Positions 38,356 through 39,161 of a DNA stretch of 44,377 nt are shown here, piece by piece (position 1 is the stretch's first letter; each line of letters begins with the position of its first letter). Below the pieces are notes generated by a model. The model had not been told where the DNA came from and did not search any database. It saw only the letters and a list, made by a program, of their open reading frames with translations. This stretch comes from a virus, in the IMG/VR virus record IMGVR_UViG_3300028559_000069, positions 1 through 44,377 of that record. The stretch is one strand, 5' to 3'. The translations under genes and the position numbers were made by a program.

Positions 38356-38552
38356 TGGTTTTTCTCTGCGGTTTCCTTCTTGCGAATATCGGACAAGTGT
38401 TTCGCGCGCCAGAGATCAAGTTCTTCCCAGCCAGCATCAAGAATTTGCGATGCCACGCGGATCGCCGTAATACTCTGGAACATACGGTCTATCTGATCCT
38501 CCGCGATTGACAATCGGTTGCGAAGTTGTTCGTAGGTTTGTTTTTTTTTCAT
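38352..38552 (-). CDS. Small coiled-coil phage protein
   Basis: A 66-residue, almost entirely helical protein (MKKKQTYEQLRNRLSIAEDQ ... KETAEKNQ). The ATG at 38552 overlaps the TGA stop of the resolvase gene as ATGA, and its own TGA overlaps the next ATG. A single long amphipathic helix suggests an oligomerising accessory factor. Function unknown. Confidence 0.65.
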   Translation of the reverse strand: MKKKQTYEQLRNRLSIAEDQIDRMFQSITAIRVASQILDAGWEELDLWRAKHLSDIRKKETAEKNQ

Positions 38553-38932
38553 GGGTGTGTAATTTCGATGGTTACGGATTCTTGGGTTTTTTTGGCGACC
38601 TTCTCTTGAAGGAATTGGAGTTCGACGCTTTGAGGGTCGTCATCGGGGATGAGGGAGGCGTAGCGGAGTTGGTCGATGAGAGGTTTGCAACCGCCTGCGA
38701 AATTATCGGCATCGAGGAGTCGGCAGGCATATCTAGTAATGCTGACAATAACGCGCTTCGGGCGGTCTGCTTTTCTCGATGGCTGGCAGTCCAGTGTTTT
38801 CCGAATAGGCGGTTGAGGCTTGGGGTTAAGTAACCGGGCAGATGGATTGTGATGACCTGCTCGGGCATAGGAGCCGTCGGGTTGCAGGGTGTAGCCAAGG
38901 GATTCAAGGTTTTGTTGGGTGAATGTGGACAT
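38549..38932 (-). CDS. RusA-like Holliday-junction resolvase
   Basis: A 127-residue protein from ATG 38932 (MSTFTQQNLESLGY). The C-terminal 70 residues carry the RusA signature: ITRYACRLLDADNFAGGCK, then DQLRYASLIPDDDP, then a QEKVAKKTQESVTIEI strand. The Asp residues of LDADN and PDDDP are the magnesium ligands of RusA enzymes, which cut four-way DNA junctions during phage recombination and packaging. The N-terminal 55 residues are Pro/Arg-rich rather than a standard RusA N-terminus, which appears in another frame (38572-38868). The frame is open to 39034, but that extension runs into the repeat region and looks non-coding. The gene lies downstream of the primase and overlaps the next gene by ATGA. 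Confidence 0.8.
   Translation of the reverse strand: MSTFTQQNLESLGYTLQPDGSYARAGHHNPSARLLNPKPQPPIRKTLDCQPSRKADRPKRVIVSITRYACRLLDADNFAGGCKPLIDQLRYASLIPDDDPQSVELQFLQEKVAKKTQESVTIEITHP
38572..38868 (-). other. Second open frame overlapping the resolvase, with a RusA-like N-terminus
   Basis: Starts with ATG at 38868 (MPEQVITIHLPGYL) in a different frame from the resolvase. It contains PGYLTPSLNRLFGKHW and HREKQTARSALLSAL, which match the N-terminal P-G-x-x-P-S-x-N-x-x-x-x-x-H-W pattern of RusA proteins. The rest, rich in Ser, Pro and Lys, looks like a shadow. It may be a real overlapping gene, the remnant of a frameshifted RusA, or coincidence. Confidence 0.35.
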
Positions 38933-38956: not shown

Positions 38957-38973
38957 GCAGGAAATGCAGGATT
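38957..38973. repeat. 17-bp repeat unit, direct orientation
   Basis: GCAGGAAATGCAGGATT on the plus strand. It is the exact reverse complement of the units at 39055-39071 and 39128-39144. With 39055-39071 it forms an inverted repeat enclosing 81 bp. Confidence 0.85.
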
Positions 38974-39054: not shown

Positions 39055-39071
39055 AATCCTGCATTTCCTGC
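39055..39071. repeat. 17-bp repeat unit, inverted orientation
   Basis: AATCCTGCATTTCCTGC on the plus strand, identical to 39128-39144 and the reverse complement of 38957-38973. Confidence 0.85.
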
Positions 39072-39127: not shown

Positions 39128-39161
39128 AATCCTGCATTTCCTGCGCGGGAAATGCGGGATT
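39128..39161. repeat. 34-bp palindrome of two 17-mers
   Basis: The left arm is AATCCTGCATTTCCTGC (39128-39144) and the right arm GCGGGAAATGCGGGATT (39145-39161). The arms are complementary at 15 of 17 positions with no spacer, so a cruciform would need a few unpaired bases at the tip. It lies 20 bases downstream of the primase stop. No T-run follows on the minus strand, so it is not a classical rho-independent terminator. Confidence 0.8.

Follow-up and report, generated by a model that had tools for sequence, protein, structure and literature searches.

The DNA analysed here, referred to as the window, is the IMG/VR virus record IMGVR_UViG_3300028559_000069, from a virus of bacteria, at its full length, positions 1 to 44,377. 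Primase and PIF1-like helicase genes lie upstream of the locus under study, and terminase and portal genes lie downstream. At this locus two frames of the minus strand, here called A and B, are open over the same bases. Frame B carries the motifs LDADNFAGGCK and PDDDP (sequence LLDADNFAGGCKPLIDQLRYASLIPDDDP). Frame A, read from the ATG at 38868, begins PGYLTPSLNRLFGKHW...HREKQTARSALLSAL, holds VITIHLPGYLTPSLNRLFGKHWTASHREKQTARSALLSAL and remains open to 38572. The features of the locus are as follows.

38549..38932, minus strand: frame B gene, 127 aa, with an N-terminal mini-domain, a weakly constrained linker and the C-terminal catalytic half of a RusA-like resolvase.
38572..38907, minus strand: frame A gene, +1 with respect to B and 111 aa long if translation begins at the TTG at 38907. 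Its content is the N-terminal half of a RusA-like fold followed by a tail that is Ser/Thr-rich, then Lys/Arg-rich.
38930..38932, minus strand: ATG start codon of frame B.
38905..38907, minus strand: possible TTG start of frame A, 25 nt past the B start.
38866..38868, minus strand: alternative ATG of frame A, missing from part of the window's clade.
38737..38856, minus strand: conserved core of A, comprising strand 1, PSLN..HW and a long helix (VITIHLPGYLTPSLNRLFGKHWTASHREKQTARSALLSAL), with elements named from the model of an intact cousin.
38552..38755, minus strand: codons 60-127 of B, the conserved C-terminal half, which includes D74, D76, K83, D87 and D98.
38735..38755, minus strand: dual-constrained stretch, the end of the A helix and the start of a B strand (B codons 60-66).
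38707..38752, minus strand: 15 doubly read codons; the A reading followed by the B reading is the window's best fit to the intact RusA-like profile.
38861..38917, minus strand: N-terminal mini-domain of B, residues 6-24, LGYxxxPDGSY, modelled as a short helix and two short strands.

A single open frame of 8610 aa (4144-29976, minus strand) covers over half of the record. A PHROG scan of seven further window genes detected no second resolvase. Between the primase gene and the RusA-like locus, the 16-base word CAGGAAATGCAGGATT occurs at 38958-38973, 39055-39070 and 39128-39143, as two direct copies on the minus strand and one inverted copy; these three exact matches in the window compare with 0 expected.

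Relatives were collected by a scan of viral contigs with B, which identified 100 stretches encoding a relative. The best 80 of these 100, together with the window, make up a set of 81 loci. L001 is a copy of the window, and the window itself was used in its place. A subset of 29 representatives shares less than 90% nucleotide identity; the representatives are related and are therefore not independent trials. The window's clade, delimited by identity, consists of 16 loci (the window and L002-L016). In a further relative search, the related stretches totalled 156.

The original prediction held that both frames over these bases look like RusA, and the presence of two conserved frames proved to be real. 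Frame A contains no stops in 81/81 loci, from B codon 9 to 36 codons beyond DxDN. Within codons 9-110 of the 29 representatives, 0 stops were observed in frame A compared with 46.8 expected under synonymous resampling of the B codons. The same test applied to 28 intact single-frame relatives gave 173 stops observed compared with 175.8 expected, and because this control matches expectation the stop test is unbiased. The opposite outcome, a second frame devoid of homologues and interrupted by stops in close relatives, was looked for and did not occur. The tail of A, considered alone, likewise contains 0 stops compared with 27.0 expected, with 10.3 of the 29 genes expected to be stop-free. In the window this tail (38572-38735, minus strand) is Ser/Thr-rich and then Lys/Arg-rich, and it stays stop-free even as its residues change. 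In three loci (L112, L114 and L364), A ends shortly past the helix. A long stop-free tail with drifting residues is a feature that the two-chain model described below does not account for.

Selection alternates between the two frames, and it is purifying, acts at the protein level and falls in complementary segments. The diversity at each codon position follows a B-type constraint in codons 7-24, an A-type constraint in codons ∼25-60, both in codons 60-66 and again a B-type constraint from there to the end. The substitution ratios of both frames across the relatives, a check proposed with the original prediction, displayed the same alternation. As Nei-Gojobori proportions, which ignore the overlap and therefore give direction only and not exact rates, pN/pS was 1.08 for A and 0.57 for B in codons 7-24, 0.38 for A and 1.50 for B in codons 31-58, 0.63 for A and 1.11 for B in codons 57-66, and 1.35 for A and 0.32 for B in codons 67-116. 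Both frames are conserved beyond chance.

When the two frames were searched separately, B was RusA-like. The RusA PHROGs (34 and 1682) matched 29/29 B proteins at E values up to 1 (best 4.9e-6), and the window B protein matched them at 1.2e-4 and 2.8e-4. Aligned with the C-terminal half of the intact cousins by hhalign, B scored a probability of 98.3% and an E value of 1.6e-14. Residues D74, D76, K83, D87, D98 and Q109 are invariant in 33 aligned B rows, so that acidic residues of the catalytic type and a lysine are present. We take these invariant residues to be equivalent to the catalytic residues of E. coli RusA; the titles of the matched RusA structures in the PDB mention D70. The Pfam family PF05866 (RusA) matched 0/29 B proteins, 0/29 A proteins and 0/27 intact cousins, and in a PDB sequence search none of these three groups matched RusA. 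The sole PDB sequence match below 0.001, to a coat protein (E 7.9e-5), was taken as spurious. Searches of phage and plasmid collections with the window B protein, and of a phage collection with the window A protein, returned no match.

Structural models give the RusA fold for an intact cousin and a weaker match to it for B alone. The model of an intact cousin (mean pLDDT 92.4) consists of a strand (2-7), a helix (21-40), a second strand (50-58), two helices and two strands, and is closest to E. coli RusA (Foldseek E 6.4e-5; Z 9.3). The model of the window B protein (mean pLDDT 80.4) contains the last five elements of the cousin, beginning with strand 2; strand 1 and helix 1 are absent. At its N-terminus are a small helix and two short strands, followed by a low-confidence stretch where A is constrained. 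Compared with RusA, the B model alone reached a Foldseek E value of 0.31 and a Z of 4.6, tied with tautomerase-like folds. In L114 (1489-1908, minus strand), the B-type N-terminus is a zinc-ribbon-like sequence, CCGQYLCSGVAVCPICGK, which replaces the LGYxxxPDGSY motif.

Similarity of A to RusA, the other part of the original prediction, was weak. Frame A has PSLN..HW and a helix-like stretch at the positions of strand 1 and helix 1, the elements absent from B. A weak but collinear hhalign match to the N-terminal half of the intact cousins was found (E 2.5e-4, probability 43%), along with a weak match to canonical RusA (E 0.0078 at 5%). Against the profile of the cousin N-terminal half, the window A protein scored 6.1 bits, and 1950 resampled controls reached at most 4.0; most other A proteins fell within the control range. 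The Asn of A is invariant in 36/36 aligned rows. Pfam, PHROGs and PDB sequences contained no RusA match for A, and returned just scattered unrelated matches at E 0.012 or worse. Since a RusA database match is lacking, the identity of A as a RusA half is drawn from the weak profile match, the motif, its spacing and conservation, and the way in which A completes B. The distance from PSLN in A to DxD in B is 36 codons in 31/34 loci, with 37 in L364, 39 in L114 and 42 in L112. Together, the intact cousins indicate that A and B are complementary parts of one fold.

A different reading of these data is that B alone is resolvase-like, a truncated form with an N-terminal domain of its own, and that A would be either a small protein that is translated but has no relation to RusA, or a leader with a regulatory role. 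This would agree with the location of all the invariant acidic residues and of the conserved N-terminal motif in B, and with the outcome of the database searches for A. However, the conserved part of A occupies, with almost no change in register, the place of the RusA strand 1 and helix 1 that B is missing, and the invariant Asn and the collinear, if weak, profile match argue against an unrelated protein. We consider this reading unlikely.

The arrangement extends to distant relatives. In a set of 18 further viral loci that includes several near relatives of the first 80, 14 were split and 4 were intact in one frame (L230, L239, L250 and L251). In another relative search, all 16 loci read out of 26 were split, although some repeat earlier contigs. 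The seed locus and one other come from MAGs named Verrucomicrobia and Terrimicrobiaceae. Among 387 genomes of the phylum of the Verrucomicrobia MAG, 4 contained a B match, the seed MAG included, and the A half was found by motif in the +1 frame in 4/4. BK063671, for which the record gives Methanomicrobiales as host, is split too (locus L333). In that record the A half at L333:3056-3343 is annotated as hypothetical (DBA35050), and the catalytic B half is without annotation.

On a tree of 71 columns, the split genes need 3 changes (bootstrap 2-3), and a single clade of split genes was not rejected (p 0.364); thus one origin or several both fit. We also considered a shared neighbourhood as evidence. 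A primase was adjacent in just 12/98 loci, 90 of which have at least 300 nt upstream, and synteny was therefore not used in the argument.

Frame A generally appears to have a start codon of its own. Outside the window's clade, its first start is an ATG in 65/65 loci, located at +13 (46 loci), +10 (15 loci) or +7 (4 loci) from the B start. A frame A ATG at +4 to +16 is present in 26/26 representatives outside the clade compared with 6.4 expected when the codons of B were resampled synonymously, using the codon frequencies of later codons alone. Each of these representatives thus has a second, +1-frame gene whose start is separate from that of B. Furthermore, N-A-Y codons before G end in T in 27/28 cases within codons 2-6 compared with 55/155 later.

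The start is less certain within the window's clade. The original prediction placed the N-terminus of A at the ATG at 38868, and the frame is indeed open from there. However, this ATG is missing in L003-L006 and L009-L011 and, since it is not kept in all loci of the clade, is the less likely start. A frame A TTG at +25, which is 38907 in the window, is present in 16/16 loci and may serve instead; its conservation is weak evidence, because a TTG arises by resampling in 12-15% of cases per gene and the loci of the clade are closely related. No Shine-Dalgarno sequence was seen by eye upstream in the loci of this clade.

The nearest A and B starts lie 4 nt apart in L219, L221, L235, L343, L344, L345, L346, L349 and L362, where that of B is TTG or GTG. 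The offset is 7 in L112, L347 and L364 and 13 in L354, L356, L357 and L359, with exceptions of 22 in L114, 28 in L237 and 31 in L365. In L333 it is 46 counted from the B ATG, and AGGAGG precedes the frame A start. The A start comes before the B start in L361 and L363, and the start pair is without clear assignment in L188, L358, L337 and L113.

The distance from HW to DxDN is 41-46 residues in the 51 intact cousins measured, compared with 28 codons in the window. We scored each locus against the intact profile as two pieces, reading A up to one point and then B from another. The best fit reads 11-16 codons twice in 44/44 loci (median 15). Compared with the best single -1 junction, its median gain is 9.1 bits (59.8 versus 42.5 in the window), and the fusion was worse in 44/44 loci. 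Part of this gain may come from gap filling by two free cut points, and the shared stretch was shuffled as a control. The real B reading was equalled or beaten by no more than 5 of 100 shuffles in 44/44 loci; the real A reading reached the 5% level in 21/44 loci and lay above the mean in 35/44. As judged from sequence, the A half is the weaker part of the argument. The claim that the overlap is too long for a one-base frameshift to restore a full RusA was borne out by these fits.

One chain could in principle be made by recoding, with translation starting in A and passing into B either by a -1 frameshift or by a ribosome hop of ∼46 nt backwards. The two halves do lie in the right order and relation for this, and a backward hop of constant length would yield a complete RusA, consistent with the nearly constant spacing. 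We know of no backward ribosome hop of ∼46 nt. In programmed frameshift genes, such as dnaX and those of IS transposases, overlapping frames are read on one mRNA; here, in contrast, a slippery X_XXY_YYZ heptamer is in frame in 1/44 loci, the second frame keeps its own start, and a single -1 fusion would cost ∼15 residues. The best single -1 junction also scores below the reading of ∼15 codons in both frames, albeit with some of that difference due to gap filling. Furthermore, a fusion requires neither a frame A start near the B start nor an A frame that is open far beyond the junction. Programmed frameshifting, one of the options raised in the original prediction, is accordingly disfavoured, and we regard production of a single chain by recoding as very unlikely.

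At first sight the locus looks like one gene broken across frames. Explanations in which the second-frame similarity is due to chance, whether through decay or frameshift of rusA or through an old duplication and later deletion, are refuted for the group and retain next to no probability, given the stop-free A frame throughout the 81 loci, the purifying selection on both frames in complementary segments and a near-fixed spacing in relatives that reach down to ∼25-30% identity.

Based on these results, we conclude that the option of a conserved overlapping gene pair is supported, and that the best explanation, with a probability of about 0.78, is that the locus encodes two polypeptides, each with a separate start, which come together as a split RusA-like resolvase. 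In this model B would start at 38932 and bring strand 2 and the region of the catalytic aspartates, and A would start separately, shortly downstream in the +1 frame, and bring strand 1 and helix 1. Ribosomes would initiate at one or the other of two adjacent start codons; both frames would thereby be translated, and both halves would come from the same mRNA stretch. In some relatives the start pair would lie 4 nt apart behind one ribosome binding site, an arrangement that would balance the two halves. RusA is dimeric; the A and B chains would bind each other to rebuild one RusA fold, and two such pairs would then form a dimer. The complex of A and B may cut branched DNA such as Holliday junctions, and it may serve in phage replication or recombination.

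Overlapping genes mostly encode two different proteins. The overlap of lacL and lacM is short, whereas here it takes in the greater part of the locus, with some of the fold encoded twice. LacL/LacM is a heterodimeric β-galactosidase, one enzyme from two overlapping genes (PMC4358714). Similarly, the lambda spanin subunits Rz and Rz1 cooperate and are encoded in overlapping +1 frames of one phage locus, where mutationally silent parts of one face sensitive parts of the other (PMC5295617). Rz and Rz1, however, are membrane proteins that differ from each other, whereas the products of the present locus would each supply half of a single enzyme fold.

E. coli RusA (PDB 1q8r and 2h8c; PHROG 34 and 1682) has in common with our loci the fold and element order of the intact cousins, the DxDN...K...DD region in B and the PSxN motif in A. 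Unlike RusA, which is one chain in one frame, the halves here lie in two overlapping frames, B has an extra N-terminal mini-domain, and PF05866 does not match. In PMC10885494, RusA/RuvC are mentioned among genes known to contain a frameshift, and the sole resolvase paper among its references 35-42 concerns E. coli ruvC. Within the literature searched, a search of limited extent, we found no report of RusA, or of one enzyme fold, split over two overlapping frames.

Taken together, these observations suggest that a virus lineage that includes Verrucomicrobiota-linked phages and a methanogenic archaeal virus probably uses an obligate two-chain resolvase, in which one catalytic fold is spread over two out-of-frame overlapping genes, part of it is coded twice, and the two chains start from a neighbouring start pair. 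With what appear to be complementary halves of one fold in two frames, over a hundred relatives can be used to trace the constraint, register and origin of dual coding. Annotation can miss one of the halves, as in the archaeal virus record, where the A frame alone is annotated. If confirmed, the locus would provide a nuclease that is split in nature, and a dual-start layout by which two chains could be produced side by side.
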